The notes beneath the pieces are model-generated. The model saw only the letters and a program-made list of their open reading frames with translations. It ran no database searches and was not told where the DNA came from. The translations under genes were made by a program, and so were the position numbers. Positions 23,107-38,382 of a stretch of DNA of 44,530 bases are shown piece by piece. The stretch's first letter is position 1; each line of letters begins with the position of its first letter. The stretch comes from Bacteroidia bacterium (GTDB lineage Bacteria > Bacteroidota > Bacteroidia > M30B66). Location of the stretch: contig JAGYKL010000028.1 of NCBI GenBank assembly GCA_018401705.1, positions 1-44,530 on the forward strand, given 5' to 3'.

Positions 23107-23688
23107 TTACCTCAAAAGTGCCAAAGTAGCTTTTACAACATCCTGCGAAGCAGCAGAATCAGCTTTTGAGCGAGATGCGACTCTAAGACCGGTCATTGTA
23201 TTATATAAAACACGAGCAAGAGTAATATCTGACAATTCACTTCTTATGTTTCCAGATTGTTTTGCTTGATGAATATAATGGCTGAACATGTTCTCAATTT
23301 CTGTTTTATTCGAATTAACAATTTCTGAAAATTCGGTATCAGCAAAACCAAGTTCCGTGGCTGTATTAACCATAAAACAACCCTTATTTTCAGAGTTATT
23401 GCCGGGCTTATTGTAAGACTCGTTGAGAAACGTTTCAAAGACAGCATAAATATCCTCCGTACCACGGAGAATTTCATGCATCTTTTCTAAGCCAATTCTT
23501 CTGTATTTATCTAATGCGCGCAGATAAAGTTGTCTTTTATCGCCAAAAGTATCATAGATACTCGAGCGACTTAAGCCAAGGTTTTGAACCAAATCATTCA
23601 CAGAACAACCTTCATATCCTTTTTCCCAAAAGACACTTATAGCTCTATCTTCAATATCATCTAAATCAAATTCTTTTGCTCTTGCCAT
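23107..23688 (-). CDS. TetR/AcrR family transcriptional regulator
   Basis: This 193-residue protein has the TetR N-terminal helix-turn-helix at about 10-55 (AISVFWEKGYEGCSVNDLVQNLGLSRSSIYDTFGDK) and an all-helical ligand domain with GCFMVNTATELG (about 97-108), common in regulators of short-chain dehydrogenase and efflux genes. It follows the SDR gene on the same strand by 88 bp. Two palindromic sites flank the -7 box upstream of the SDR gene, so it probably represses that promoter and, through it, itself. It ends exactly where the convergent barrel gene ends. The inducer is unknown. Confidence 0.85.
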   Translation of the reverse strand: MARAKEFDLDDIEDRAISVFWEKGYEGCSVNDLVQNLGLSRSSIYDTFGDKRQLYLRALDKYRRIGLEKMHEILRGTEDIYAVFETFLNESYNKPGNNSENKGCFMVNTATELGFADTEFSEIVNSNKTEIENMFSHYIHQAKQSGNIRSELSDITLARVLYNTMTGLRVASRSKADSAASQDVVKATLALLR

Positions 23689-24529: not shown

Positions 24530-24541
24530 GTATTATTTTTT

Positions 24542-24589
24542 GGAACGTTTGTTCCGCAAAGGTATAGAATTTTCGGAATGTTCGTTCCG
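24542..24589 (-). promoter_or_regulatory. SDR promoter with double TetR-type operator
   Basis: GGAACGTTTGTTCC (24542-24555) and CGGAATGTTCGTTCCG (24574-24589) are related palindromes whose centres are 33 bp apart, about three helical turns. Between them on the minus strand is TACCTTTG (24557-24564), a perfect -7 element. One operator covers the start site and the other the -33/spacer region, as expected for repression by the neighbouring TetR protein. Confidence 0.65.
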
Positions 24590-24670: not shown

Positions 24671-24715
24671 TGTGACTCATGTCACTTACAAGCTTACTTC
24701 ATATGCTCAACTTTG
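24671..24715 (+). promoter_or_regulatory. CRP/FNR-type site and -7 element of the TauE/SafE gene
   Basis: TGTGACTCATGTCACT (24671-24686) is a CRP/FNR-type palindrome with perfect GTGAC/GTCAC arms. After exactly 21 bp comes CAACTTTG (24708-24715), a near match to TAnnTTTG. The site centre is about 40.5 bp upstream of the expected start, class II activator geometry. The gene begins at 24731. Confidence 0.65.
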
Positions 24716-24730
24716 CATAAAATTTAACAC

Positions 24731-25543
24731 ATGCTCATCATAGGATATATTGCTTCACTCATTATTGGTATTTCACTTGGTTTAATTGGCGGGGGCGGTT
24801 CTATATTAACAGTTCCTGTGCTTGTTTATCTTATGGGTGTTGACCCTGTAATGGCAACAGCATATTCATTATTTATTGTGGGAACAACATCGCTAGCAGG
24901 AGTTATTCCAAAATACAAGGCAGGTGAGGTAAATATTAAGACAGCAACTATTTTCGGCATCCCTGCAATAGCTGCAGTATTCTTAACAAGAAAATTCATA
25001 GTTCCTGCAATACCCGAAGAGATTTTCTCTATCGGAAGCTTCGTCTTATCCAAAGGCATTCTGCTTATGGTACTATTTGCGGTGTTGATGGTTTTTGCTT
25101 CTGTTTCGATGATTACCTCGAAAAAAGATGCAGAACCTGAATCAGGTGAGCAAAAGTTCAACTTCCCACTTATCTTTCTGGAAGGAATTATTGTGGGCAC
25201 ATTAACAGGTCTTGTTGGAGCCGGTGGTGGCTTCCTAATTATCCCTGCACTTGTTATATTAAGTAAACTTCCTATGAAGCAAGCCGTAGGAACTTCACTC
25301 CTTATTATAGCAGCCAAGTCGCTTATTGGCTTTACAGGCGATTTAGGTAATGATCCTATGGATTGGAGGTTGATTCTCACAGTTACAGGTTTAGCCATTG
25401 TTGGAATTATCCTCGGTAGCATGCTAAGTAAAAAAGTAGATGGCAAAAAGCTTAAAAAAGGCTTTGGATGGTTTGTGCTAATAATGGGTATTTACATACT
25501 TGTAAAAGAGCTATTCTTTCATTCAGATGCCGCAATTCACTAG
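24731..25543 (+). CDS. TauE/SafE family anion (sulfite-type) transporter
   Basis: This 270-residue membrane protein has about eight helices in two similar halves, each with a Gly-rich start: GLIGGGGSILTVPVLVYLMG near residue 18 and GLVGAGGGFLIIPALVIL near 160. These are diagnostic for TauE/SafE, which move sulfite, sulfonates or related anions across the inner membrane. A hydrophilic loop at about 125-145 separates the halves. It is preceded by the first of five CRP/FNR-type promoters and lies just before the persulfide dioxygenase operon, so export of sulfite made by that enzyme is the likely role. Confidence 0.85.
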   Translation: MLIIGYIASLIIGISLGLIGGGGSILTVPVLVYLMGVDPVMATAYSLFIVGTTSLAGVIPKYKAGEVNIKTATIFGIPAIAAVFLTRKFIVPAIPEEIFSIGSFVLSKGILLMVLFAVLMVFASVSMITSKKDAEPESGEQKFNFPLIFLEGIIVGTLTGLVGAGGGFLIIPALVILSKLPMKQAVGTSLLIIAAKSLIGFTGDLGNDPMDWRLILTVTGLAIVGIILGSMLSKKVDGKKLKKGFGWFVLIMGIYILVKELFFHSDAAIH

Positions 25544-25545
25544 CG

Positions 25546-25590
25546 TGTAACTCAAGTCACATTTTAAAAACGAAACAATCTCGACCTTTG
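25546..25590 (+). promoter_or_regulatory. CRP/FNR-type site and -7 element of the main sulfur operon
   Basis: TGTAACTCAAGTCACA (25546-25561) is followed after exactly 21 bp by GACCTTTG (25583-25590), one mismatch from TAnnTTTG. It is the same geometry as at the other four sulfur promoters. The operon's first gene starts at 25622. Confidence 0.65.
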
Positions 25591-25621
25591 TGTCATAATT
25601 TAAACTGAAAACAATTTCAAG

Positions 25622-27037
25622 ATGAAAATAGAACAGATATACACAGGTTGCCTTGCTCAAGGAGCCTACTACATTGAAAGCAATGGAGAAGTTGCAATTA
25701 TTGATCCTTTGCGCGAAGTTGAACCATACCTTGCAAAGGCTCAAAAAGATGGAGCTCAAATTAAGTATGTGTTAGAAACGCATTTTCATGCGGATTTTGT
25801 TTCGGGACATCTAGATCTTGCTGCGAAAAGCGGAGCTCCAATTGTATTTGGACCTAATGCAAATCCCGAATTTGAAGCTCATATAGCTGAAGACGGTGAA
25901 ATCCTGAAATTAGGAAACATCAGCATCAAAGTACTACATACTCCCGGTCACACTATGGAAAGTACTTGCTACTTGTTGAGAGATGAGAATGGAAAAGACG
26001 TTGCCCTCTTTAGTGGTGACACCTTGTTCATTGGAGATGTAGGCCGTCCAGATCTAGCTCAGAAAGCAGCTCATATGACTCAAGAGCAGTTGGCAGAGAC
26101 CCTTTTTGATTCTTTAAGAAACAAGATTATGCCATTAGCAGATGACATTACTGTTTATCCAGCTCATGGCGCTGGCTCTGCATGTGGAAAAAACATGAGT
26201 AAAGAAACCACAGATTTATTAGGCAATCAGAAGAAGAATAATTACGCACTTCGTGCTGATATGACTAAAGCAGAGTTTGTGAAAGAAGTTACAACAGGCC
26301 TAATGCCTCCTCCTGCATACTTTCCACTTAATGTGGCAATGAATAAGCATGGGTATGATAGTATCGACGAGGTGCTTGACAGAGGTTTACATGCATTAAG
26401 CCCTGCAGGTTTTGAAGCCGCTGCCAATGAAACTGGAGCGCTAATCTTAGATACTAGAGCACCACATGTTTTTGCTAAGGGATTCATTCCGAATTCAATT
26501 AATATTGGAATTGACGGAGGTTTTGCTCCATGGGTTGGCGCCTTAATACCTGATATCAAGCAGAATATTTTACTTGTAACTGAGCAAGGAAGAGAAGAAG
26601 AAGTTGTTACTCGTTTAGCAAGAGTAGGTTACGATTTTACAATCGGATACTTAAAAGATGGCTTCGAAGCTTGGGCAGAAGATAAAAGAGAATTCGACAG
26701 TATTGAATCTGTTGATGCTGAATTCCTTGCTGAAGAAATGAAAAAGAAAGAGCTTAATATTCTGGATGTTAGAAAAGAAAGTGAATACAAAAGCGAACAC
26801 ATTATTGATGCTGAAAATGCTCCTTTAGATTTTATCAATGAAAGCATGATGAAAGTATCGAAAGACAAGACCTATTATGTTCATTGTGCAGGAGGATATA
26901 GATCTATGATTTTTGCGTCTATACTTAAAGCAAGAGGATACGACAATCTTATTGATGTTAAAGGCGGATTTAGTGCGATCAAGCAACAAGCAGATATTCC
27001 GGTTACTGAATACGTTTGTCCAACAACATTATTATAA
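25622..27037 (+). CDS. Persulfide dioxygenase-like MBL / double rhodanese fusion (copy 1)
   Basis: The 471 residues hold an ETHE1-like metallo-beta-lactamase domain (about 1-235) with THFHADFVSGH (His54, His56, Asp58), HTPGHTMEST, SGDTLFIGDVGRPDL and YPAHGAGSACGKN, followed by two rhodanese domains. The first (about 260-350) lacks a catalytic Cys. The second (about 365-460) has CAGGYRS with Cys422. ETHE1-type iron enzymes oxidise persulfides to sulfite; the rhodanese can combine sulfite with persulfide sulfur to give thiosulfate. A paralogue is at 36773-38179. It heads a plus-strand run of genes to 31641 under a CRP/FNR-type promoter. Confidence 0.9.
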   Translation: MKIEQIYTGCLAQGAYYIESNGEVAIIDPLREVEPYLAKAQKDGAQIKYVLETHFHADFVSGHLDLAAKSGAPIVFGPNANPEFEAHIAEDGEILKLGNISIKVLHTPGHTMESTCYLLRDENGKDVALFSGDTLFIGDVGRPDLAQKAAHMTQEQLAETLFDSLRNKIMPLADDITVYPAHGAGSACGKNMSKETTDLLGNQKKNNYALRADMTKAEFVKEVTTGLMPPPAYFPLNVAMNKHGYDSIDEVLDRGLHALSPAGFEAAANETGALILDTRAPHVFAKGFIPNSINIGIDGGFAPWVGALIPDIKQNILLVTEQGREEEVVTRLARVGYDFTIGYLKDGFEAWAEDKREFDSIESVDAEFLAEEMKKKELNILDVRKESEYKSEHIIDAENAPLDFINESMMKVSKDKTYYVHCAGGYRSMIFASILKARGYDNLIDVKGGFSAIKQQADIPVTEYVCPTTLL

Positions 27038-27054
27038 ACCATCACAACCATCAC

Positions 27055-27086
27055 AAGCCGGAGGCAAAGAAATTTCTCTCCGGCTT
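27055..27086 (+). repeat. Strong hairpin between dioxygenase and rhodanese genes
   Basis: AAGCCGGAG and CTCCGGCTT form a perfect 9-bp stem with a 14-base loop, followed by AATTT. It could partly terminate transcription after the first gene or protect its mRNA end. Just before it, ACCATCACA is tandemly repeated (27038-27056). Confidence 0.5.
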
Positions 27087-27100
27087 AATTTAAACCGAAC

Positions 27101-27388
27101 ATGAAAACAATTCAGGAATTACTTAAAGATTCGACTACGAAAATCATTGATGTTCGCAGTCCGGGCGAATTTGCATCAGAGCATCTTACTAATGCCATAA
27201 ATATTCCGTTAGAAACTATCGCAGCAAGAGCATCAGAAATCATTGCAATGAAAGCTCCTGTTTTAGTTTATTGCCGAAGCGGAGCAAGAAGCGGAATGGC
27301 TGCTTCAATTTTAAAGCAAGCAGGCCTAGACAGCGTTGTAAACGGAGGCTCTGTTTATGATTTACTATTCGAAATTCAAAATCATTAA
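27101..27388 (+). CDS. Single-domain rhodanese
   Basis: This 95-residue cytoplasmic rhodanese has DVRSPGEFASEHLTNAINIP (the CH2A-type Asp-Val-Arg start) and the active-site loop YCRSGARSG (Cys at about 64). A six-residue loop of this kind favours sulfane sulfur transfer. No signal peptide is present. It lies second in the sulfur operon, 63 bp after the dioxygenase fusion and 2 bp before the next rhodanese. It probably carries persulfide sulfur to or from the dioxygenase. Confidence 0.9.
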   Translation: MKTIQELLKDSTTKIIDVRSPGEFASEHLTNAINIPLETIAARASEIIAMKAPVLVYCRSGARSGMAASILKQAGLDSVVNGGSVYDLLFEIQNH

Positions 27389-27390
27389 TC

Positions 27391-27699
27391 ATGTTGGGCT
27401 TCATAAAGAAATTATTCGGCGAATCTGTAGATTTTAAACAACTAATATCTGAAGGTGCTTTGATTATTGATGTTAGATCTCCTGCAGAATTTAAAAGTGG
27501 TCACATTAAAGGTTCCACAAACATTCCTGTAGACAAGATCAAAAACAAAACTCAGGAGCTACAATCAAAAGGCAAAGCAATCATAACAGTTTGCAGAAGC
27601 GGCTCTAGAAGTGGAATGGCTAAAAGCATTCTTACATCAGCAGGTATAAAAGCATATAATGGTGGCCCTTGGAATAGTCTCCAGGGAAAAATTAGATAA
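27391..27699 (+). CDS. Single-domain rhodanese
   Basis: This 102-residue rhodanese has DVRSPAEFKSGHIKGSTNIP and the active loop VCRSGSRSG (Cys about 69). A short N-terminal extension, MLGFIKKLFGES, could be an amphipathic helix at the membrane. It resembles the gene 2 bp upstream (same GMA.SIL..AG helix), which suggests tandem duplication and divergence. Its role is sulfane sulfur transfer within the sulfur operon. Confidence 0.9.
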   Translation: MLGFIKKLFGESVDFKQLISEGALIIDVRSPAEFKSGHIKGSTNIPVDKIKNKTQELQSKGKAIITVCRSGSRSGMAKSILTSAGIKAYNGGPWNSLQGKIR

Positions 27700-27779
27700 A
27701 ACCTTCTTTTAATAATCTTCTTAGTAAGCAAAAACATGGAACTTTCTTTTGGGAAAGTCAAATATAGATTGCTTCATTT

Positions 27780-28001
27780 TTGACTAATCGGCAAATAAAA
27801 CAGAATTTGAATAAGCAAATTAAACCCTTTTTAATCCTGTCAATTTCTGCTGTAATAGGCGGTGCTATAGGATATTCATATTATCATTTTTACGGTTGTA
27901 CAAATGGATGTGCAATAACCGGATCTCCGGTAAACAGCACCTTATACTTTGCATTCCTTGGAGCTTTAGTTCCAGGAATGTTTAATAAAACGAAAAAATA
28001 A
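27780..28001 (+). CDS. DUF6132-like small membrane protein, TTG start
   Basis: This 73-residue protein has two membrane helices (about 16-32 and 53-66) with YGCTNGCAITGSPVNSTLYFAF between them, the signature of DUF6132. The two Cys flank a Gly-rich turn and may bind metal or carry a persulfide. In-frame TAG lies just upstream, so TTG at 27780 (or TTG at 27807, codon 10) must be the start. The family occurs beside rhodanese and YeeE genes, as here, so a role in thiol/sulfur transport is inferred from context. Confidence 0.65.
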   Translation: MTNRQIKQNLNKQIKPFLILSISAVIGGAIGYSYYHFYGCTNGCAITGSPVNSTLYFAFLGALVPGMFNKTKK

Positions 28002-28007
28002 TCTGTG

Positions 28008-28856
28008 ATGATTAATAAAATACTGTTTACAACTGATTTTTCAGACTTATCAGAGAAGACCTTGAGTGTATCTCAGACCATTGCAAGAAAGCTTGGCGCT
28101 GAAATATTTGCACTCCATATCGTGAGTTTACCTTCCCATATTTTGCTAACGGAAGAAGGCGAATTGCTTGACGATTGCGAAATGGACAATTCAGAACCAT
28201 TTCTAAATAAGATAAAAGCAGAAGAGCATTTTGAAAAGATGCAGCAAAATTCTGATGTTAAAATCAACACGAAGGTCTTGTATGGACATTTTAACGAAAC
28301 TGCTCTTAATTACGCTAATCAACTTAATCCAGACTTAATCATCATGGGAAGTCATGGGATTCATTCTGTTAAGGAACGAATCTCAGGTTCTCATACTGAA
28401 TATCTGGCAATGCATGTCAAAATGCCTGTACTCAATATTAAGGAGATAAACCAGAATGATGAGATTAAACGAATTGTTTTGGCTAGCGCCTTTCACGATG
28501 ATGATATTCCAAATTGCAATATTGTACTTGGCTTAAGAGAGGCCTTCGAAGCACAGCTTTGCCTTTTAAGAGTAAATACTAAAAACAACTTCCTTTCTGA
28601 TACAGAGGCTATCGAGCACATGCAGACTTTTGCAAAATTGCACGGATTAATGGATGTTGAATATCATGTATTTAACGCTCATTCTGTTGAAGAAGGGGTT
28701 ATTGAATTTGCCGCAAAAGAACAAATTGATCTATTGGCAATTGGCTCAAATCAAAGAACAGGATTCAACAAATTCCTTCAAGGTTGCATTTCTGCAGATC
28801 TGGTAAATCATGCTAATAAACCATTGTTAACCTTTCCATTAAAATTAAAAAAATGA
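28008..28856 (+). CDS. Tandem universal stress protein (UspA family)
   Basis: This protein is 282 residues from ATG 28008 (a GTG directly before it is the alternative start). Two Usp domains are visible. The first, about 1-145, starts NKILFTTDFSDLSEKTL and has MGSHGIHSVKERISGSHTE. The second, about 147-282, has AIGSNQRTGFNKFLQGC followed by KPLLTFPL. The second domain retains a G-2X-G-type nucleotide-binding loop only approximately. Usp proteins bind ATP or act as stress switches. It sits 6 bp after the DUF6132 gene and overlaps the YeeE gene by 4 bp, so it belongs to the sulfur operon and may control the transporter. Confidence 0.85.
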   Translation: MINKILFTTDFSDLSEKTLSVSQTIARKLGAEIFALHIVSLPSHILLTEEGELLDDCEMDNSEPFLNKIKAEEHFEKMQQNSDVKINTKVLYGHFNETALNYANQLNPDLIIMGSHGIHSVKERISGSHTEYLAMHVKMPVLNIKEINQNDEIKRIVLASAFHDDDIPNCNIVLGLREAFEAQLCLLRVNTKNNFLSDTEAIEHMQTFAKLHGLMDVEYHVFNAHSVEEGVIEFAAKEQIDLLAIGSNQRTGFNKFLQGCISADLVNHANKPLLTFPLKLKK

Positions 28857-29419
28857 TAGAGTTGTTAAAAGAGCCGTGGCCCTGGTATGTGAGTGGACCA
28901 CTAATCGGAATAAGTATTCCGATATTATTGATTCTTGGCAACAAAATGCTTGGAATTTCATCTTCGCTTAGACATACTTGCGCTGCTGTTCTTCCTGGAA
29001 ATGTTGCCTTCTTAAAATACAACTGGAAATCAGAAATGTGGAGTATGTTCTTCGCTTTGGGGATTTTCATCGGAGGTTTCATTGGAGGAAACCTCCTTAA
29101 CAATGGAGAACCTGTTAAAATATCTGCTGAAACAGTTGAAGACATTAAGGCTTTAGGGATTAATTCTTTTGAAGGACTTGTACCATCTGATATTTTTAGC
29201 TGGGATGCAGTTTTTACTCTTCAAGGTTTGATTATTCTAGTTTTTGGTGGATTTATGATTGGGTTTGGTAGCCGCTACGCCGGCGGATGTACTTCGGGAC
29301 ATGCTATTATGGGCCTTTCTAGTCTTCAATGGCCTTCATTAGTTGCTGTAATCTTCTTCTTTGTTGGAGGCTTAATTATGACTCATCTCATTGCTCCGGT
29401 TCTATATTCAATTCTATAA
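28853..29419 (+). CDS. YeeE/YedE family thiosulfate transporter, first half
   Basis: This 188-residue protein has four or five helices and the conserved SRYAGGCTSGHAIMGLSSLQ motif (Cys about 146), the substrate-relay Cys motif of YeeE/YedE (TsuA) proteins. Known full-length YeeE transporters are about 350 residues and take up thiosulfate by passing it between Cys residues. Here the transporter is split in two, this gene being the GCTSGH-containing part and the next gene the ACPGP part. The start ATG overlaps the Usp stop (ATGA). Confidence 0.85.
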   Translation: MIELLKEPWPWYVSGPLIGISIPILLILGNKMLGISSSLRHTCAAVLPGNVAFLKYNWKSEMWSMFFALGIFIGGFIGGNLLNNGEPVKISAETVEDIKALGINSFEGLVPSDIFSWDAVFTLQGLIILVFGGFMIGFGSRYAGGCTSGHAIMGLSSLQWPSLVAVIFFFVGGLIMTHLIAPVLYSIL

Positions 29420-29423
29420 AAAC

Positions 29424-29834
29424 ATGAAGTACATAAAATATATGCTTGTTGGAACCATGTTTGGCTTGGTTCTTACAAAAACAGAAGCTGTTTCTTGGTT
29501 TAGGATACAAGAGATGTTCCGATTCCAAAGCTTTCATATGTATGGAATTATTGGTTCGGCAATCGTTGTTGGAGTTATATCCATACAAATCATTAAACGA
29601 TTTAAAATCAAAGCATTGGGAGGAGAAACCATTTCAATTCCGGATAAGAAATTTAATAAAGGGGCCATTTTTGGCGGAACCATTTTTGGAATGGGATGGG
29701 CGCTTGCCGGCGCTTGTCCAGGTCCACTCTATGCACTTCTTGGTGCTGGATATACATCAATTATAGTAGTTATTCTAAGTGCTCTGGCAGGCACCTGGGT
29801 TTACAGCTACTTAAGACCAAAGCTTCCACATTAA
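29424..29834 (+). CDS. YeeE/YedE family thiosulfate transporter, second half
   Basis: I use the ATG at 29424 (136 residues), 4 bp after the preceding stop; the frame is open further upstream only inside the first half. Four helices are seen, with GMGWALAGACPGPLYALLGAG (Cys about 96), the second Cys motif of YeeE/YedE. Together with the preceding gene it makes a two-subunit transporter, likely for thiosulfate. The following gene encodes a lipoprotein rhodanese that could deliver or receive the sulfur. Confidence 0.85.
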   Translation: MKYIKYMLVGTMFGLVLTKTEAVSWFRIQEMFRFQSFHMYGIIGSAIVVGVISIQIIKRFKIKALGGETISIPDKKFNKGAIFGGTIFGMGWALAGACPGPLYALLGAGYTSIIVVILSALAGTWVYSYLRPKLPH

Positions 29835-29846
29835 TAACTAAATAAG

Positions 29847-30200
29847 ATGAAATTCAAATTCTATTTTCTGTTAACCGTTTTTACTGTCATTACGGTTAGT
29901 TCATGTCATTCTCAGCCAAGAAGTATTTCAGTAACTGAGTTTAAAAGCGAGCTTAATAAAAAAAACTCAGTTTTAATTGACGTAAGAACACCTCAAGAGT
30001 TTGCTTCGGGTCATATTCAAGGAGCTACCAATATTGATTTTTACGCCAAAGATTTCGAATCTCAGATATATACAGCAGGAGAAAAATCAAATGTTCTCAT
30101 TTATTGTGCCTCAGGTAACCGAAGCGGCCAGGCTTTAAAAAGTCTTAATGCTGGTAAATTTAAATCAATCAGCGACCTAAGCGGTGGAATCTGTGCCTAG
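29847..30200 (+). CDS. Exported lipoprotein rhodanese
   Basis: This 117-residue protein has a signal peptide with lipobox ITVSSC (Cys20), then a rhodanese domain with DVRTPQEFASGHIQGATNID and the catalytic loop YCASGNRSG (Cys about 90). It ends SGGICA, with a further Cys near the C-terminus that could form a relay. As a lipoprotein it acts on the outer side of the inner membrane or in the outer membrane, unlike the two cytoplasmic rhodaneses of the operon. Sulfane sulfur handling next to the YeeE transporter is the likely role. Confidence 0.85.
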   Translation: MKFKFYFLLTVFTVITVSSCHSQPRSISVTEFKSELNKKNSVLIDVRTPQEFASGHIQGATNIDFYAKDFESQIYTAGEKSNVLIYCASGNRSGQALKSLNAGKFKSISDLSGGICA

Positions 30201-30245
30201 CAACAGGAGGAAATTCAATAATAAAATAACACATAAACCTGAACC

Positions 30246-31219
30246 ATGAGAAAATTAATCTATCTCTTTGTAATTATTGTCATGGGCAGCCTTTTGTGGT
30301 ATTCATTAAACTATCTTGAAACTCACACAGAACAGACAAAATCCCTCATGAAAATGAGGAAAGCTATTGGTATGCCCCTAAAGAAAAGGATGTTCCTGAA
30401 GGCGAACAGAAAGAACTGATTAAATATGGTAAAGAGCTTGTTGCCCATACCTCAAAATATTTAGGACCCAAAGGGAGTGTTGCACAAATTTCGAACGGTT
30501 TAAATTGTCAAAATTGTCACCTCGATGCTGGTACTGTGATGTGGGGAAATAACTATTCGTCGGTTTACTCAACTTACCCAAAACTAAGAGCTAGGTCGGG
30601 GCAAGTAGAAGATATCCCCAAACGAGTGAACGACTGCTTCGAACGAAGTCTAAATGGCCAGGGACTAGATACTTCTTCCAAAGAAATGAAAGCCCTGATT
30701 GAATATATAACTTGGATAGGTCACAATCAGCCAAAAGGCGAAAAGACTTATGGCTCAGGTATACTTAAACTTGCATTTCTAGATCGTGCAGCTAATCCCC
30801 AAAAAGGTCAGTTAGTTTATCAAGAGAAATGTCAATCGTGTCACATGGCCAATGGAGAGGGAATAATGAATGCCGATGGCAACGAATATCAATATCCGCC
30901 GCTATGGGGCGAACATAGCTATAATTCAGGTGCTGGATTATTTAGAATGAGTAATCTTGCCGGTTACGCAAAGTCAAATATGCCTTTTGGAGCAAGTTTC
31001 GCTTATCCAATTTTAAGCGATGAAGAGGCCTGGGATGTTGCAGCTTATATTAATTCTCAACCAAGGCCTTCATTTAACAACACAAACGACTGGCCTGATA
31101 TCAGTAAAAAACCAATAGATCATCCTTTTGGTCCTTTTGCAGATAATTTTAGCGAAAAACAGCATAAATACGGTCCCTTTACAGATATTAAAACCTGGAA
31201 GGAACAACATTCAAAATAA
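30246..31219 (+). pseudogene. TsdA-like di-haem cytochrome c with a frameshift
   Basis: From ATG 30246 the frame encodes a signal anchor (MRKLIYLFVIIVMGSLLWYS) and then runs to TGA at 30417-30419. The cytochrome continues in the -1 frame from about 30320-30362: SYWYAP, then AHTSKYLGPKGSVAQISNG, the first haem site CQNCH (30506-30520), LRARSG, CFERSLNGQ, and the second haem site CQSCH followed by MANGEGIM. That frame has a stop at 30317-30319 and no start codon before GTG 30536, so the parts belong to one gene with one missing base (or a -1 shift). CQNCHLDAG and the ordering fit thiosulfate dehydrogenase TsdA relatives, which oxidise thiosulfate to tetrathionate. Confidence 0.75.
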
Positions 31220-31224
31220 CAACT

Positions 31225-31641
31225 ATGAAATACTTCTTATTTATTCTTTCATTAAGCCTGACCAGCTTAAACTTAAACTCTCAAACTACAGCCAAGCATA
31301 AAATTGTAATGCAGTTAACAAGCAGTGATACTCTTGTGCATAAAGGCTTACTTAAACAATTGAACAATCTGCATGAAGGTTGGGGCGATTCTGTTGAAAT
31401 AGAGGTAGTTTGTCACGGACCTGGAATTGAGTTTCTGATGAAAGGGAACACTCGAAATATGAATAAGATTAACAATCTGAAAGACAAAAAGATTAGGTTT
31501 GTGGCTTGTGAAAACACCCTGAAAGAGAAGAAAATAGATAAAAACAAGCTTTTGCCGAATCTGGAATATGTATTAATGGGCATTGCAGAAATCGTTGAAA
31601 AGCAGGAACAAGGGTGGTCATATATTAAAGCAGGGTTTTAA
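31225..31641 (+). CDS. Exported DsrE/DsrF-like protein
   Basis: This 138-residue protein has a signal peptide (about 1-19, LNSQ) and a DsrE-like fold: HKIVMQLTSSD, GDSVEIEVVCHGPGIEFLMKG, then IRFVACENTLKEKKI and YVLMGIAEIVEKQEQGWSYIKAGF. The VCHGPGI and VACENTL Cys are the conserved pair of this family; the second is the usual sulfur carrier. Members bind sulfane sulfur or act near sulfur oxidases. It lies 5 bp after the cytochrome gene and closes the operon. Confidence 0.8.
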   Translation: MKYFLFILSLSLTSLNLNSQTTAKHKIVMQLTSSDTLVHKGLLKQLNNLHEGWGDSVEIEVVCHGPGIEFLMKGNTRNMNKINNLKDKKIRFVACENTLKEKKIDKNKLLPNLEYVLMGIAEIVEKQEQGWSYIKAGF

Positions 31642-32327
31642 TGAACCAAATCCAATAGTTGATTGCTTAAATCACTAACTCAATTAGTGGCGAAAAATCT
31701 GTGCTTGGACTTCCAGTGTCTTTGCGGAGCGCAAAAGTAAAGTGGGTATCTATAGAAGTTTGTATTGATATCCCGAGCTAAGTAGATTAAAAATGGTTGA
31801 TTTTTTAATCTTGCCAATTGAAGTTTTTTATACCAGCATTTAATTTAGGTATTTTTCTTTCATTCACCGTTCAGGATAAAGCAATTTGAACCATAAATAG
31901 TATTGCGACTCTGCATTATGGCTTAGAGAAACTCCAACCCAATTCAGAACACTTCAAGAATTTCCACTTAATCTTTCAATTCGATTGTGCTAAAATCATT
32001 GATTTGATAATTGTTAAAGAAATGGCCTAAAGGCAGGCTTGTTAATTCAATTGGATTAAGTCGAAATCAGAAATTTAGTGCCTAAATAGCTATCCGAAAT
32101 TAAAGATGTTTGAGGAATTTAGCGTTTGGGACGAATGTATTATTTCCTTTCTCAAAGAATAATTGGATTAAGTAAAAGGAATGACATTCTGCTTAACTAA
32201 TTCGAATATATAACGTTTTTAAAACAAACTTAAAAATAGCTGGCTGTGCTTTTTATGATTTCATACAGAAGCTATTCTCCCAAGATACCGGCTAAAACAG
32301 CTAATATCAACTATAATGTATGATAAA
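31642..32327. other. Gene-free region between sulfur operon and porin gene
   Basis: This 686-bp AT-rich stretch has no convincing coding sequence in six frames. It contains a CACTAA-N5-TTAGTG inverted repeat (31673-31689), a TTTGCG-GAG-CGCAAA hairpin (31721-31735) and a 13-bp direct repeat AATTGGATTAAGT (32049-32061 and 32161-32173). It may hold a decayed gene or an element end. Confidence 0.5.
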
Positions 32328-33746
32328 TTAAATTTTCAAATCAACTATTAGATTGAAATTAATCATATTTACTTTATTATAGATAAACCTCGGATCAATT
32401 GTTTTATCGTCCGCATTTAACTTACCAACTATGAGCATCCGAATTTCTAATCCCTTCCAAAATTTATCGAAATTATAGGAAGATGATATATTCATTTGGT
32501 GGTAAGAAGGCATACCGTATTTGTTCAGGTTAAAATTTGTAACATCAGGCAAAGTATAATATCCATAGCCTATTCCCGATTTTAAATGTTTATTAAACAA
32601 ACTCATTGTTAGGTTAGTTGTATAAGCATTTAGTCCTCCCAATCCTTCATTACGTTCACGTGCCATAAAGGTGTAAAATGGATCTCGACCCCATTCTCTT
32701 GGCATCAAATATCTGCCATCGTTTGTTATGTGTGTATAATTTATATTCCAATCTATTTTATTGTTCTTCAATCCTAATCTAGTGCTAATTACATTTGATT
32801 GCGCTCCTTTATTGATGTATGTAATTGATTGGTCAATATTTCCTCCATTTTCGAGAGCATCTTGGTGAATAAACATAATATTCTCGTATAATCTCAAATG
32901 ATTGGCAAACACATCATTTTCATTTTTCACTTCAATTAATACTGTATTCATTACGTTATCAAAATAACCATCCCATATATTTATTTCAATATTTTCAGTA
33001 GGCTTTATAGCTAAATTAACCATTGAAAAACCATTACTTTCAATATTGTTTTTATAATTTGAGATTGTTCCATTAGTATTTAAACCTTGACCATAAATAC
33101 CCAATGATTCTCCAACTTTAAACCATTCAATCGTTGAGCGCGGCGAGACAGACCAAATATGCCCTCCGTTAATTGTTAGTTTTTTGTGGAGGTTGAATTT
33201 CATCCACACCCCCTCTTCAATAGTTGGTCGCATTCTACCATCCTGCATATTCATAAATGGAGTTTGTAATTCCATCCTTCCAACAGCTATTGAATGCTTG
33301 CGAAACGTGTAATTTAAGTACAAATCTTCTAAACGATCTAAATCTTTTCTATTCAGATGATTGGTTAAATCATATTGCCCTAATTCATACCTATTGCTTT
33401 GTCCAGTTGTGGGGTCTGGCTTTTCTAAATCAGATGAAAAGAAGTTAAAAATAAAGTATCCGCTAATACATACCTGGAAGCCTTTAACAGGGGTTGTTAG
33501 CAAGCCGATACCTGCACCCTGAGCAATCGTATAATCGTCTTTTAGAGCTCCGTCATTAATTGTTGACATAAAAAATGTACGGCTATGGAAATGCCAATCC
33601 GATTGATTCATAAAATCCTTTATGGAAGTAATTTTATGTTCTGATTTAGCGGTAGTGTCAGTCTCATGCTCTTGAGCAGTTAAAGGAAATGAAGCAAATA
33701 GTATTACGAGTAATAAGAGACCATTCCTTTCGAAAATTATTTTCAT
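32328..33746 (-). CDS. OprD-like outer membrane porin
   Basis: This 472-residue protein has a signal peptide (cleavage near LTAQE) and an outer-membrane barrel with features of Bacteroidota OprD-like porins: SRTFFMSTIND, GAGIGLLTTPVKGFQ, FSSDLEKPDPTTG, LYLNYTFRKHSIAVGRMELQTPF, and the C-terminal strand NLIVDLKI. OprD-type porins pass small organic or inorganic anions. The position between the DsrE and SoxB-like genes suggests transport of sulfur compounds, but no CRP/FNR-type site precedes it. A 9-bp-arm inverted repeat lies 43 bp upstream (33789-33816). Confidence 0.8.
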   Translation of the reverse strand: MKIIFERNGLLLLVILFASFPLTAQEHETDTTAKSEHKITSIKDFMNQSDWHFHSRTFFMSTINDGALKDDYTIAQGAGIGLLTTPVKGFQVCISGYFIFNFFSSDLEKPDPTTGQSNRYELGQYDLTNHLNRKDLDRLEDLYLNYTFRKHSIAVGRMELQTPFMNMQDGRMRPTIEEGVWMKFNLHKKLTINGGHIWSVSPRSTIEWFKVGESLGIYGQGLNTNGTISNYKNNIESNGFSMVNLAIKPTENIEINIWDGYFDNVMNTVLIEVKNENDVFANHLRLYENIMFIHQDALENGGNIDQSITYINKGAQSNVISTRLGLKNNKIDWNINYTHITNDGRYLMPREWGRDPFYTFMARERNEGLGGLNAYTTNLTMSLFNKHLKSGIGYGYYTLPDVTNFNLNKYGMPSYHQMNISSSYNFDKFWKGLEIRMLIVGKLNADDKTIDPRFIYNKVNMINFNLIVDLKI

Positions 33747-33788
33747 ACTTTTTTATTAAATATCTGGAACAGAATTTATCCGCCTCGA

Positions 33789-33816
33789 TATATCTTAACT
33801 GATACCATAAGATATA
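33789..33816. promoter_or_regulatory. Inverted repeat upstream of the porin gene
   Basis: TATATCTTA (33789-33797) and TAAGATATA (33808-33816) are perfect 9-base arms separated by 10 bases. The site lies 42 bp upstream of the porin ATG and may be an operator. It is unlike the CRP/FNR-type sites of this window. Confidence 0.35.
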
Positions 33817-33841
33817 ATGCGGAGAAACAGGAGGCTGTTGA

Positions 33842-34002
33842 TTAATATTTGAAATTCCGGGGGAGCTTTGATGTTAATTTATCTCGAATTTCCTTGTTTA
33901 GGTGATGGAATATCATTTCAATTTTGCTGAGGCTGATGCTTTCACTGTACTGATTAATTATTCTATCAATGATTTCTCAAATTGTTTAATTACATCTAAC
34001 AT
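33842..34002 (-). pseudogene. Possible remnant of a small gene
   Basis: On the minus strand, ATG 34002 opens 14 codons (MLDVIKQFEKSLIE). After a TGA, the neighbouring frame reads EIIDRIINQYSES, then SKIEMIFHHLNKEIRDKL and LPRNFKY to a stop at 33842. The second frame has no start codon before its internal ATG. The amphipathic helix-like sequence looks coding, but the gene is broken and unrecognised. Confidence 0.2.
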
Positions 34003-34151
34003 TAAAGAAATAATGTAATCCCTCCTATATGCGTGATAATTGAAATTCTTTCAACATCATTAGTACATTTTGTATTTAGAAATCAAAAACTTTGAATAAG
34101 ATCAACGATTGACGAATGCAATTATATTAATTCAATGTTATTTTCTATTGT

Positions 34152-35849
34152 TTAACGAAACTGATAATCAACTCCTCTAACTTGAGTGAGTAAATTTTGT
34201 GACGCATCTAGTACCTTAGCATTTAATTCGGGTGTTGGAGTAACAGGACTGTTTACTTCAAGATATTCCTTCATGACGCTATGCAATGTGAAAGAGGTGT
34301 TTTTGGCGTTTAAAACTCCTTTTATACGGCAAAGCATATCAGCAGGATCGCCATCTCTTTCGCAAGCGCAGATATTATATTTTTTTTCGAGATCAAGCAA
34401 TGAATCACCTACCATTACTTTAGTTACACGTTTTCCCTTTTCGCTATATGCATTGAACTCGACCTTCATACCTTTAAACTTTATTACCCAGCCACCAAAT
34501 CGTTCTGAAGCTTCTTCGGCAAATACATTATTCAGTTCTTTCTCAAGCCAGTCTATTAGTTGCTTTCCGGTAATGGTTCCTGTTCTAATGAAACTATCAA
34601 CTGGCAACATGTCAAAAATAAATCCATTGGTTATAGGAATATTCCCAGTATCGTCGGGTGTTGTTCGAGGCGGACAAAATCTAAATCCATTGGAAAGCAC
34701 AACATCAATATCTTTCAATTTCCAATGCAATGCGTTTAATATCATTGAATCAATAGGATTCTCTACCACAAAATATCGATAAAGAGGAATAGTGCTATAC
34801 CCCACAATTCTATTAATGTTGTCTTCAAATGGTCCCTCACTAGACTTAATCAAAGCGAGCATATTTGCGTCTTCTTTATACTTATTTGCGGTAATTTCAA
34901 CCAACTCATAATCGTCTTTAACTACCTTCCCATTTTCGATAGTTAAATTTAATTTCCCAACAAACGAACCGAAGGCCCCTGGCTCAACAACCTTTGAATA
35001 TTTGCATTGAATGGGAACCCTCACGCGTTCGTGCGTGTCGCCTCCAAGTATGTAATTTACACCGTTGCACTCAGGCAAATTTGCCAAGTGTATTTGCTGC
35101 GATAATCCTAAATGAGCAACCATTAAAATAAATGCACATTGCTCATCGTTTTTGAGCACATCAACATAATGCGCTAAATTGTCTTCAGGTTTTGTGTAGA
35201 TAATTCCTTTACTATAATTTGGAGATTGGCGTAAAGGGACTAATGGATCGGTATAGCCCAAGAATCCAATTTTTACACCATTCACCGTCCAAATATGGTA
35301 TGGAGGAAAGATTAGCTCGCCTCTTTTTCCATCACCCAAATCATGATACATATTGGCGCAAACTTTAGGACCATTTAAAGCTCCTAACAGAGTTTGCATA
35401 GCCTTTTTATAATAGATTACTTCCCAATTTCCCGGAAGGTATAAATCATAATTTAACTCATTTAGAATTGGCACCAATGCCTTCCCTGTTGTTTCTACAG
35501 AAAGCTCACTGCCTTGAAACATATCACCTGTGTCGACAACAAATGTGTTTTTGTTTTTATTACGGTAAGATTTCAAGTATGAAGCAAGATGAGCATAACC
35601 GCCAGTTTTCCTAAATACCGCTTTGTCATTCTCCCAAAATAATTCATCATGTGCATGCACTTGACAATGAACATCTGTTGTTTGCAAAATAGAAACTTCA
35701 AATAATTTGTCATTAATTTCATTAGCATTCTCATTGCTTTCTTCACTTCTGTTGTGCGCCAATCCTGTCAAAGGGTTAATAGTTGCAAGCAAAGAAGTAG
35801 TTCCTACCAGTCCTGCCTTTTTCAAAAAATTACGTCTATTATTTTCCAT
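34152..35849 (-). CDS. Tat-exported SoxB-like dimetal hydrolase
   Basis: The 565 residues begin with a Tat signal, RRNFLKKAG (5-13), followed by a hydrophobic stretch. The calcineurin-like metallophosphatase domain (about 50-330) shows TTDVHCQVHAHDE (Asp59, His61), DTGDMFQGS (Asp106, Asp109), GNWE (140-143) and GGDTHERV. The 5'-nucleotidase C-terminal domain (about 350-540) has LSNGFRF and NIPITNGFIFDMLPVDSF. 5'-nucleotidases normally have GNHE; a Trp in place of the His is typical of SoxB, which hydrolyses sulfate from a SoxY-bound cysteine persulfonate. No SoxY, SoxZ or SoxXA gene is visible, so the substrate is uncertain. The promoter has a CRP/FNR-type site (36028-36072). Confidence 0.8.
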   Translation of the reverse strand: MENNRRNFLKKAGLVGTTSLLATINPLTGLAHNRSEESNENANEINDKLFEVSILQTTDVHCQVHAHDELFWENDKAVFRKTGGYAHLASYLKSYRNKNKNTFVVDTGDMFQGSELSVETTGKALVPILNELNYDLYLPGNWEVIYYKKAMQTLLGALNGPKVCANMYHDLGDGKRGELIFPPYHIWTVNGVKIGFLGYTDPLVPLRQSPNYSKGIIYTKPEDNLAHYVDVLKNDEQCAFILMVAHLGLSQQIHLANLPECNGVNYILGGDTHERVRVPIQCKYSKVVEPGAFGSFVGKLNLTIENGKVVKDDYELVEITANKYKEDANMLALIKSSEGPFEDNINRIVGYSTIPLYRYFVVENPIDSMILNALHWKLKDIDVVLSNGFRFCPPRTTPDDTGNIPITNGFIFDMLPVDSFIRTGTITGKQLIDWLEKELNNVFAEEASERFGGWVIKFKGMKVEFNAYSEKGKRVTKVMVGDSLLDLEKKYNICACERDGDPADMLCRIKGVLNAKNTSFTLHSVMKEYLEVNSPVTPTPELNAKVLDASQNLLTQVRGVDYQFR

Positions 35850-36027
35850 ATTTAAAATTTAAAAAACAACGCTTTAACTAATTGTCTTATTTTTTCAATT
35901 CTATTACTTTTAGACCGCCTTTCTTCCTGCTCTATAATTCAAAAAACAGCTGGTTATTGCTATGATTTCGTTTTCAAGAGATTGAAAAAGGTCTATATCC
36001 ATTTTAATTTGCTAAATATTACTTTCA

Positions 36028-36072
36028 CAAATATACGCTTGTGTTTTTTGACGCTCAGTAACCTAAGTTACA
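36028..36072 (-). promoter_or_regulatory. CRP/FNR-type site and -7 element of the SoxB-like gene
   Basis: On the minus strand TGTAACTTAGGTTACT (36057-36072) is followed after exactly 21 bp by TATATTTG (36028-36035), a perfect -7 match. The site is a variant with GTAAC/GTTAC arms. Geometry is identical to the other four sulfur promoters. Confidence 0.65.
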
Positions 36073-36324
36073 AATAAAAAAATAGTTGCTTTCTTTATTG
36101 ATGATTTGAATCGACTACTTTTTATCGAAGCCCTTTCTTCTATCTCAGCTTGATTGTTTTGAATATGCTTGGAAGTAAAAAAAACAACATCAATACTTAT
36201 AATTTAAGTTTCTGGCATTCAATCAGTAAGGAAGTTATGACAAAGTACAAAATTCACTAAGGTTAATATCAAAAACATTCGCGCTTTGCTGCGATTTAAA
36301 AAATTAAGAGCAATCGATAAAGTA

Positions 36325-36355
36325 TTGATAGTTAAAAAATTTATTACTAGTTTTG
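36325..36355 (+). promoter_or_regulatory. Housekeeping promoter of the small lipoprotein
   Basis: TTG (36325-36327), 20 bases, then TAGTTTTG (36348-36355) match the Bacteroidota -33/-7 pattern. The ATG lies 22 bp downstream. Confidence 0.6.
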
Positions 36356-36377
36356 ACTTTTACTAAAATTCACATAT

Positions 36378-36599
36378 ATGAAAAAATTATTACTAGCAGT
36401 TGCAGTTGTAGCTTTCTTAGCTTCTTGCAAAAAAGATTACACATGTGATTGTGTTGACACTTCAGGTATTGAGCCATTGTTCCCGCCAACATCAACAAGT
36501 TTTGACGGATTAAACAATTCTGATGCAGATGCACAAGAAACCGCTTGCACTGCAGGAAATGGAGTTTCTTTCTACACTTGTACTTGGTCAGAAAAATAA
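36378..36599 (+). CDS. Small Cys-rich lipoprotein
   Basis: This 73-residue protein has a lipoprotein signal peptide with lipobox FLASC (Cys17) followed by KKDYTCDC. The mature part is acidic and has four further Cys (TCDC, then ETAC, then YTC), which may form two disulfides. Short lipoproteins of this kind are common and functionally uncharacterised in Bacteroidota. The gene has its own promoter and a terminator (36619-36646), so it is a single-gene unit inside the sulfur island. Confidence 0.75.
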   Translation: MKKLLLAVAVVAFLASCKKDYTCDCVDTSGIEPLFPPTSTSFDGLNNSDADAQETACTAGNGVSFYTCTWSEK

Positions 36600-36618
36600 T
36601 TCTTTGTGAATTTTTATT

Positions 36619-36646
36619 AAAAAAGAGCTCATGAGGCTCTTTTTTT
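36619..36646 (+). terminator. Rho-independent terminator of the small lipoprotein gene
   Basis: AAAAAAGAGC and GCTCTTTTTT pair perfectly around a 7-base loop and end in a T-run. It lies 19 bp after the stop codon. Confidence 0.85.
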
Positions 36647-36717
36647 TGCCCAAAATTTCGACCTTAAATCAGAGTTCTTTATTTGATTAAAGAATAAAGC
36701 CAAGCTCAAAATTTCAT

Positions 36718-36756
36718 ATAAAAGGCAGCTCTGCAAGCAACAGAACTGCCTTTTAT
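36718..36756 (-). terminator. Rho-independent terminator of dioxygenase copy 2
   Basis: ATAAAAGGCAG and CTGCCTTTTAT form an 11-bp stem, extended after one mismatch by TCTG/CAGA, with a 7-base loop. It lies 16 bp after the minus-strand stop at 36773. Being nearly symmetric it may also stop plus-strand transcripts. Confidence 0.75.
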
Positions 36757-36772
36757 GAATACGGTTATAATC

Positions 36773-38179
36773 CTACAACATTGTTGTAGGACAAACATAC
36801 TCGCTCTTCTCTAGCTCGGTTTCCTTCAATTCGTTGAAACCTCCTTTTAAGTTAACCAAATGAGAATATCCTATAGACATAAGGATGGAGCATGCAATTA
36901 CAGAACGGTATCCAGATGCACAATGAACATAATAAGTACTCTCCGGTTTAAAAGCATAAATCTCTGAGAAAATAAAATCAAGAGGGTGATTCTCAGCATG
37001 AAGGAGATGTTCTGAATTAAATTCACTTTTCTTCCTCACATCTATAAGATTCATTGAATCAGGTTTGAAATTTTGAGAGAATTCTTTAGCAGTCATTTCA
37101 TCTAAGTGGGCTACATCCATGCCTGCGTTTATCCAGGCATTGATTCCTCCTTTTAAGAAGCCGATAGTATTATCGTATCCTACACGAGCCATTCTGGTAA
37201 CAACCTCTTCCTCGGTGCCTTCGTCAGCTAAGAATAAAACAGGTTGATTTAGATCATTAATCAGAGCGCCAACCCAAGGAGCAAAACTTCCATCGATTCC
37301 GATGAACCAAGAATTTGGAATGTGTGCCTTTGCAAAATCGGAAGATTTCCTTGTGTCAATCACCAAAGCTCTGGTGGTTTCTTTTACAGTAATAAATTCA
37401 TCAACAGAAAGTGGCTTAAGCCCCTTTTTCAATACATCATCAAATGATGCATAGCCTGTTTTATTCATCACTGCATTCTTAGGAAAATATTGAGGAGGAG
37501 CAACTAGTCCCTCAGTAACTTTCGCAATAAACTCCTCTTTAGATCCGGTTTGAAGCGCATAATTTGTCTTACGCTGATGTCCCAGAGAATCTACAGTTTC
37601 ACTGCTCATATTTTTCCCACATGCCGAGCCAGCTCCGTGTCCCGGATAAATAATCACGTCATCAGGAAGGGGAAGAATTTTATGCTGAAGAGAATCATAT
37701 AAATATCCAGCAAGGTCTTCTCTGCTTAAATCAGATTTTACAGCAAGGTCGGGGCGACCAACATCTCCAATAAACAAGGTGTCGCCTGTAAAAATTGCGT
37801 GCGGATTACCTTGTTCGTCAACAACAAGAAAGGTAGTAGATTCCATCGTATGTCCTGGAGTGTGAAGCACTTTGATGGTTATTTTCCCAAGTTTCAATTC
37901 TTCATTATCTTTAGCAACATAAGCATCAAAAGCTGGTTGAGCCGTTGGTCCAAAAACAATTTTTGCTCCCGTTTTAGCAGCTAAGTCGAGATGCCCTGAA
38001 ACAAAATCCGCATGGAAATGCGTTTCCAATATAAATTTAATTTTTGCGCCATCATTCTCTGCTCTTTCAAGATATGGAGCTGATTCTCTTAATGGGTCAA
38101 CAATAGCTGCTTCCCCATCACTTTCAATGTAATAAGCTGCTTCAGCAAGGCAGCCAGTGTAGATCTGTTCGATTTTCAT
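36773..38179 (-). CDS. Persulfide dioxygenase-like MBL / double rhodanese fusion (copy 2)
   Basis: This 468-residue paralogue of the protein at 25622-27037 is collinear over its whole length (same start MKIEQIYTGCLA and same end YVCPTT-L). The metallo-beta-lactamase domain keeps THFHADFVSGH, HTPGHTMEST and DVGRPDL. The first rhodanese domain lacks a catalytic Cys; the second has CASGYRS with Cys420. Function is as for copy 1: persulfide oxidation with rhodanese transfer. It is transcribed divergently from SQR. The promoter combines a CRP/FNR-type site with a TetR-type palindrome, so it is probably regulated differently from copy 1. Confidence 0.9.
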   Translation of the reverse strand: MKIEQIYTGCLAEAAYYIESDGEAAIVDPLRESAPYLERAENDGAKIKFILETHFHADFVSGHLDLAAKTGAKIVFGPTAQPAFDAYVAKDNEELKLGKITIKVLHTPGHTMESTTFLVVDEQGNPHAIFTGDTLFIGDVGRPDLAVKSDLSREDLAGYLYDSLQHKILPLPDDVIIYPGHGAGSACGKNMSSETVDSLGHQRKTNYALQTGSKEEFIAKVTEGLVAPPQYFPKNAVMNKTGYASFDDVLKKGLKPLSVDEFITVKETTRALVIDTRKSSDFAKAHIPNSWFIGIDGSFAPWVGALINDLNQPVLFLADEGTEEEVVTRMARVGYDNTIGFLKGGINAWINAGMDVAHLDEMTAKEFSQNFKPDSMNLIDVRKKSEFNSEHLLHAENHPLDFIFSEIYAFKPESTYYVHCASGYRSVIACSILMSIGYSHLVNLKGGFNELKETELEKSEYVCPTTML

Positions 38180-38261
38180 GATATGAGGTTTTTGAGTGTT
38201 TAATTAAGATTCATTCGATTTAAAGTGAAAACAAGACAAATAATTCTTGAAAATCACAAGA

Positions 38262-38306
38262 CAAATATAAACTAACAATCGTTAGTTTAACGTGACATAA
38301 ATCACA
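38262..38306 (-). promoter_or_regulatory. Promoter of dioxygenase copy 2: CRP/FNR-type site plus TetR-type palindrome
   Basis: On the minus strand a CRP/FNR-type site (38291-38306; arms TGTGAT and GTCACG) is followed after exactly 21 bp by TATATTTG (38262-38269). Almost the whole 21-bp spacer is a perfect palindrome, AAACTAAC-N4-GTTAGTTT (38269-38288), of TetR-operator type. An activator and a repressor could therefore act on the same promoter. Confidence 0.65.
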
Positions 38307-38337
38307 CATTATCATAAATCTGCATTGTTTTTTCATA

Positions 38338-38382
38338 TGTGACTTTCATCACATTCAAGCTCCTTGTTAATTGATAGATTCG
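38338..38382 (+). promoter_or_regulatory. CRP/FNR-type site and -7 element of the SQR gene
   Basis: TGTGACTTTCATCACA (38338-38353) is followed after exactly 21 bp by TAGATTCG (38375-38382), one mismatch from TAnnTTTG. The ATG is 22 bp downstream. Geometry matches the other four sulfur promoters. Confidence 0.65.

Follow-up and report, generated by a model that had tools for sequence, protein, structure and literature searches.

Five sulfur-gene promoters of a Bacteroidia bacterium resemble class II targets of a candidate Crp/Fnr-family regulator

The 44,530-nucleotide stretch analysed here (the window) is contig JAGYKL010000028.1 (C21) of the Bacteroidia bacterium assembly GCA_018401705.1, which comprises 3.74 Mb in 95 contigs, the window making up 1.2% of the genome. 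It carries five Crp-type palindromes, each lying exactly 21 bp upstream of a TAnnTTTG-like -7 box, in front of genes for a TauE/SafE-family transporter, two persulfide dioxygenase (PDO)-rhodanese fusions (PDO1 and PDO2), a SoxB-like hydrolase and a sulfide:quinone oxidoreductase (SQR)-like flavoprotein. On the sequence evidence these sites look like those bound by a class II activator of the Crp/Fnr type that controls sulfur genes, and their regulator is probably CRP-A, a 217-residue Crp/Fnr-family protein encoded elsewhere in the same genome. We consider it fairly likely that this one activator binds all five sites in the class II position, responds to sulfane sulfur or to thiol state and drives the sulfur genes.

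Quoted in the direction of their genes, the palindromes are TGTGACTCATGTCACT for TauE (24671-24686, plus strand), TGTAACTCAAGTCACA for PDO1 (25546-25561, plus), TGTAACTTAGGTTACT for the SoxB-like gene (36057-36072, minus), TGTGATTTATGTCACG for PDO2 (38291-38306, minus) and TGTGACTTTCATCACA for SQR (38338-38353, plus). The boxes that follow them are, in the same order, CAACTTTG (24708-24715, plus), GACCTTTG (25583-25590, plus), the exact TATATTTG at both the SoxB-like gene (36028-36035, minus) and PDO2 (38262-38269, minus), and TAGATTCG, with one mismatch, at SQR (38375-38382, plus); all five have 0 or 1 mismatch to TAnnTTTG. A coordinate check of all five sites and boxes and a composite scan agree with an earlier note on this DNA about all ten positions and the gap of exactly 21 bp in five of five cases. 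That note had written the sites as TGTGAC-N4-GTCACA; the palindrome class stands, but TGTRAYNNNNRTYACA describes them better than this strict form, from which the 36057 site departs at three positions. Taken by itself the palindrome carries little weight, because the strict form with up to three mismatches occurs 18 times in the window against a chance mean of 10.4 (2 of 100 shuffles reach 18), and it is the combination with the box at 21 bp that is special. We scored this combination as a composite of TGTRAYNNNNRTYACA, 21 bp and TANNTTTG, with 18 scored positions. At up to two mismatches the window contains five composites with the 21-bp gap, and any other gap between 11 and 31 bp yields 0 or 1; at up to one mismatch, four have the 21-bp gap and the remaining gaps in this range yield none. 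Across 200 dinucleotide shuffles of the window, the composite occurred on average 0.075 times at up to two mismatches (maximum 2, compared to five seen) and 0.005 times at up to one (maximum 1), in line with the earlier view that the fixed spacing is hard to obtain by chance.

These shuffles argue against the idea that the sites are chance palindromes close to promoters. The companion idea, that they are repressor operators, draws on the PDO2 promoter, where another perfect palindrome, AACTAACnnnnGTTAGTT, follows the activator site and comes ahead of the -7 box; yet a repressor needs no fixed distance, and the gap is 21 bp at all five window sites, with a class-wide peak at the same value. We regard either version as highly improbable. 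As for the second palindrome itself, it is the core of a perfect 9-nt inverted repeat, TAAACTAAC-N4-GTTAGTTTA (38268-38289), which may be a repressor operator, with a repressor also acting there. The core recurs once elsewhere in the genome, at C4:82823, upstream of a ferredoxin-reductase-type gene that by eye looks like a phenylacetyl-CoA oxygenase reductase.

Scanning the entire genome for the composite with up to one mismatch yielded six sites, namely the window sites at 25546, 36028, 38262 and 38338, C1:169743 and C23:159333, and none in a reversed control. Four of six falling within 1.2% of the genome has a binomial probability of 2.9e-7. The earlier note had proposed that its regulon be abandoned if such a scan found the pattern equally often beside unrelated genes; at this threshold the proposal survived, the two sites outside the window lying at Crp/Fnr and peroxiredoxin genes. 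The peroxiredoxin gene is preceded by C23:159333. C1:169743, the only composite in the genome with zero mismatches, lies 55 bp upstream of the gene for U527, an exported-looking protein of 527 residues (C1:168133-169716; L034:6134-7717) that adjoins CRP-A on its upstream side and on the same strand. U527 had no match in Pfam, NCBIfam or the PDB; its homologues in genomes G094 and G012 are likewise preceded by a composite within one mismatch, and U527 is a recurring unknown member of the predicted regulon. Exactly two mismatches added eight composites, including the window TauE site and one (C26:12900) immediately 5' of a gene of thioredoxin-reductase type, a kind of target seen again in other genomes; the remainder may be chance matches. 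A scan at up to three mismatches gave 72 matches versus 38 in the reversed control and was discarded as noisy. Rhodanese matches number 11 in the genome, seven of them inside the window.

The same geometry was found across the class, in a set of 100 genomes comprising this one and 99 relatives. With the gap left free between 8 and 38 bp, exact 16-mers followed by an exact box numbered 54 (16 in the reversed control), with 21 at gap 21, 10 at gap 22 and a mean of 0.79 at the other gaps. At gap 21 and up to one mismatch, 137 composites were found in 58 of the 100 genomes, compared to 12 in the reversed control. G001, a genome of the same genus, keeps the 21-bp gap upstream of its TauE homologue (77% identity) and its PDO homologue (86% identity), the intervening DNA having diverged while both composite sites stay. 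Since composites also occur beside other Crp paralogues (G055, G091) and before a prismane gene (G080), as described below, the 21-bp spacing seems to hold for Crp/Fnr activators of the class in general, and it may aid in finding Crp/Fnr targets in other Bacteroidota genomes. The secondary peak at gap 22 includes one site 25 bp from a CRP-A homologue (G092:C2), and class II sites centred at -42.5 may also be functional.

Class II activators classically sit at -41.5. The -7 box of Flavobacterium psychrophilum spans -12 to -5 according to PMC9723704, and this would place the window sites at -49 to -34, centred at -41.5. The class II placement made earlier is supported (gap 21 in five of five, and the class-wide peak), with its centre moved from -40.5 to -41.5; a fixed distance from the core promoter, which marks class II geometry, is observed here, the position of the -7 box being borrowed from F. 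psychrophilum as given in PMC9723704.

The regulator had been said to lie outside the window, and its candidate was indeed located on contig C1, where CRP-A occupies positions 167430-168083 on the minus strand. CRP-A belongs to the Crp/Fnr family by Pfam cut-offs (PF00027, 54 bits; PF13545, 37 bits; PF00325, 28 bits), and its Pfam matches are confined to the cNMP_binding and Crp helix-turn-helix families. Its recognition helix, SREVISR, aligns with SRETVGR of CRP and retains R-E-x-x-x-R; it is through that R, E and R that CRP contacts TGTGA. Besides CRP-A, the genome scan for Crp/Fnr proteins turned up one other, FNR-B (C12:25042-25758); a third HTH_Crp_2 match proved to be a MarR protein and was set aside. 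Being the sole other Crp/Fnr protein found, and having six cysteines, FNR-B might be thought to own the sites. Its recognition helix, TATETAIR, lacks the arginine before the glutamate that both CRP-A and CRP possess, and FNR-type TTGAY-N4-RTCAA sites at the same geometry gave 0 exact matches in this genome and only 7 in the 100 genomes; helix and scarcity led us to judge FNR-B an unlikely regulator. Moreover, it is CRP-A orthologues that adjoin such promoters, FNR-B matching in 2 of 80 orthologue loci, and we give this assignment very little credence.

The case for CRP-A rests further on genomic linkage. A CRP-A homologue (E up to 1e-30) is present in 61 of the 100 genomes, and these 61 hold 121 composites versus 16 in the 39 genomes without one (Fisher 1.1e-5). 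Among the 60 relatives with a homologue, 9 of 115 composites lie within 5 kb of it, where 0.39 are expected. We also took the best 80 of 588 CRP-A orthologues confirmed in named genomes (Flavobacterium, Pedobacter, Dyadobacter, Chitinophaga and others), with neighbourhoods of up to 8 kb as the contig permits (58 of the 80 loci at full length, 1.20 Mb in total). Near these orthologues lie TauE genes at 58 of 80 loci, PDO1- or PDO2-type genes at 63, either or both at 68, and YeeE genes at 33, counts that ignore relatedness, many Flavobacterium loci being near copies. Around the same orthologues, 37 of 44 exact-box sites are at gap 21 (3 in the reversed control); these 37, from 33 loci, precede PDO-type genes (22), rhodaneses (3), TauE (2), YeeE (1) and CRP-A itself (2), and the other 7 have no gene of at least 80 amino acids within 200 bp.

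A second line of evidence connects the recognition helix with the base composition of the sites. In the relatives, the residue following the first helix arginine is either E or V, and the fourth half-site base is G at a mean fraction of 0.78 in the 23 E genomes versus 0.39 in the 19 V genomes (permutation 5e-5); when restricted to homologues with both of the cysteines described below, this fraction is 0.77 (22 E genomes) versus 0.36 (9 V genomes; permutation 5e-4), both statistics being computed without correction for relatedness. This test took every composite of a genome, regardless of which Crp protein owns the site, and left out one genome with both kinds of homologue, genomes without sites and sites within long open reading frames. 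Mutants of CAP at E181 are reported to prefer TGTAA, the same direction as this trend. Among the 80 named loci there was nothing to compare, as all 80 had E at this position, the scan pattern having admitted E or V. Within the homologues there is a subgroup in which G replaces the second cysteine and V replaces the helix E (genomes G003, G005, G013, G022, G029, G035, G043, G064, G071, G083 and G095), and from its sequence this Gly/Val subgroup may differ in both sensing and site preference.

The content of the putative regulon was read from the 131 composites found outside this genome, of which 18 are intragenic, 23 have no near start, and the other 90 are followed by a start codon no more than 100 bp away. 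Assigned to target classes by similarity to the window proteins or by simple motifs, 48 of the 90 near downstream genes are of a sulfur or thiol class: PDO fusions (10), other rhodaneses (12), TauE (6), WCxxC thioredoxin-fold proteins (10), thioredoxin reductases (3), DsbD-like proteins (3), DUF302 proteins (3) and a CxxC thioredoxin-like protein (1). Pfam agrees with these classes, matching Rhodanese in 21 of the 90 downstream proteins, Thioredoxin_2 in 15, TauE in 7 and DsbD_TM in 4. Counted over all sites, sulfur genes follow 47 of 115 composites where the regulator is present and 1 of 16 where it is absent.

What CRP-A senses is suggested by the pocket in which the cyclic AMP of CRP is held. 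When aligned to E. coli CRP, the Glu position of the cassette is L88 in CRP-A and the Arg position is Q98; in the best 80 of 588 orthologues the Glu position is L, I or V in all 80, and the Arg position is R in 4. With Glu and Arg of the cassette replaced, CRP-A is not, by its sequence, a CRP proper of the cyclic AMP receptor kind, and against the NCBIfam CRP model it scores 50 bits where the cut-off is 266. The protein's only cysteines flank the cassette glutamate position, C86 lying two residues ahead of it and C92 four residues past it, in the loop that holds cyclic AMP in CRP, and both are present in 80 of 80 close orthologues (again the best 80 of 588). Best homologues were compared in 52 of the 61 genomes and had C86 in 52 of 52 and C92 in 38 of 52. 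An AlphaFold2 model of a Dyadobacter orthologue has a Crp-like fold (mean predicted local distance difference test score, pLDDT, 80; predicted TM-score 0.57), with 3dv8, a Thermus CRP and E. coli CRP as best matches. Residues 83-88, which include the second cysteine, have a pLDDT below 50. As TM-scores of about 0.5 and large root-mean-square deviations made the domain arrangement unreliable, no distance between the cysteines was taken from this model. We infer that the signal is sulfane sulfur or thiol state, read through C86 and usually with C92.

The same activator and sites could instead answer nitric oxide (NO), oxygen or another ligand, for example through a bound heme, the sulfur genes then being one element of a broader redox response. 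Sensing of NO or O2 by Crp/Fnr proteins through heme or Fe-S is well known, and among the 90 downstream proteins are one Prismane and three Cytochrom_C matches. The prismane case, however, comes from a genome without a close CRP-A homologue, the targets are dominated by the Rhodanese, Thioredoxin_2, TauE and DsbD_TM families counted above, and two cysteines are too few for the four-cysteine [4Fe-4S] cluster of the FNR type. A sulfur signal is favoured on account of gene content, an argument from content, and we deem the NO or oxygen version unlikely, if more plausible than FNR-B or a repressor.

A number of observations weigh against a CRP-A regulon that senses sulfane sulfur. Fourteen of the 52 best homologues are without the second cysteine, and a strict dithiol mechanism is not general, as G001, G070, G083 and G092, which lack C92, keep PDO or TauE sites. 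G001 (73% complete) keeps two sites, but the CRP-A homologue found in it has only 33% identity. In the genome studied here, CRP-A is not adjacent to the window genes. Forty of the 90 near downstream genes are unclassed and two more are U527, and the excess of sulfur genes at near-gene sites (47 of 84 with the regulator present versus 1 of 6 with it absent) is weak, with a p of 0.07. Composites also adjoin other Crp/Fnr paralogues (G055:C18, where a cytochrome c-type gene accompanies the composite, and G091:C53), and since they are common to other Crp paralogues, geometry alone does not name the regulator. Another relative, in which CRP-A has only a weak homologue, bears a composite (G080:C3) upstream of a prismane gene. 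Relatedness, uncorrected in the orthologue counts and in the E/V statistics, counts on the same side.

Taking sites, geometry, genomic linkage and covariation from the sequence, we infer the binding, activation, signal and chemistry to be as follows. A CRP-A dimer would bind TGTRAY-N4-RTYACA centred at about -41.5, its downstream half-site substituting for the -33 region, and at TAnnTTTG promoters it would touch RNA polymerase in the manner of a class II activator, a contact proposed to set the gap at exactly 21 bp. C86 and C92 would read sulfane sulfur, as persulfide or polysulfide, or thiol redox state. CRP-A would then turn on SQR (sulfide oxidation), PDO (persulfide oxidation), rhodanese (sulfur transfer) and TauE (export), and in relatives also thioredoxin-type genes. 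In its broadest form, to which we lend slightly less than even weight, this proposal makes CRP-A part of a Bacteroidota-wide, apparently undescribed Crp/Fnr branch in which the cyclic-nucleotide pocket would have turned into a cysteine persulfide sensor, serving as class II activator of a phylum-wide regulon at TAnnTTTG promoters, that regulon consisting of sulfide, sulfane-sulfur and thioredoxin genes.

CRP-A can be set beside several known systems. E. coli CRP in its class II mode uses TGTGA-type half-sites centred at -41.5. The two proteins share the Crp fold with its helix-turn-helix and the helix R-E-x-x-x-R, and they differ in that CRP-A would act at TAnnTTTG promoters in place of -35/-10, has cysteines in the cassette and has sulfur genes as predicted targets. 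SQR and PDO genes are among the targets of FisR, SqrR/BigR and CstR. According to PMC9774590 these are sulfane-sulfur sensors that respond through cysteines, FisR being a Fis-family (sigma-54) activator, SqrR/BigR ArsR-family repressors and CstR a CsoR-like repressor, unlike the Crp/Fnr protein CRP-A at TAnnTTTG. Consistently with its standing outside those families, CRP-A had no Fis/sigma-54, ArsR or CsoR match in Pfam. Its top match both by sequence and by Foldseek (21% identity in the latter) is PDB 3dv8, a Crp/Fnr regulator of Eubacterium rectale, whose two cysteines align with C86 and C92; we know of no function for 3dv8. HcpR binds a TGTGA-type site, answers NO and drives hcp. The HcpR of D. 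desulfuricans is a Crp/Fnr protein like CRP-A (PMC5701242), whereas the predicted targets of CRP-A are mainly sulfur and thiol genes. Searches of the open-licence literature, which are no proof of absence, brought up nothing for Bacteroidota on a regulator that governs sulfide or persulfide genes or on a Crp/Fnr protein controlling PDO, SQR or TauE, and nothing on CRP/FNR at TAnnTTTG promoters. The present analysis names a candidate regulator, models its site at base level, defines a fixed geometry, lists targets from many genera and points to two residues for mutation, which makes the question of regulation directly testable.

The window genes behind the five sites were labelled from their domains. 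The TauE/SafE-family transporter (24731-25543, plus) matches Pfam PF01925 with 156 bits. PDO1 (25622-27037, plus) combines a metallo-beta-lactamase fold (PF00753) with two rhodanese domains (PF00581) and is by similarity a persulfide dioxygenase-rhodanese fusion, falling below the NCBIfam equivalog cut-offs; PDO2 (36773-38179, minus; PF00753 and PF00581, two stretches) is a second such fusion by similarity. The SoxB-like or 5'-nucleotidase-like hydrolase (34152-35849, minus) matches PF00149 and PF02872 and scores 213 bits against TIGR04486 SoxB (cut-off 550), and the SQR-like flavoprotein (38405-39601, plus) matches PF07992 and scores 255.6 bits against NF049943 type III SQR (cut-off 525). Within the earlier claim that all five sites precede sulfur genes, the SoxB-like, SQR and PDO labels rest on Pfam domains and NCBIfam matches below cut-off. 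At the SoxB-like gene, 178 nt separate the -7 box from the ATG, and this leader contains a 30-codon open reading frame (35910-36002, minus).

The window contains palindromes of another kind as well. Two near-identical ones, TGGAACGTTTGTTCCG (24541-24556) and CGGAATGTTCGTTCCG (24574-24589), lie directly upstream of an SDR gene (24529, minus). With up to three mismatches, this pattern occurs at three places in the window (four matches over both strands), where 0.37 matches are expected, and the two palindromes are perhaps operators for the product of the adjacent TetR-family gene (23107-23688).

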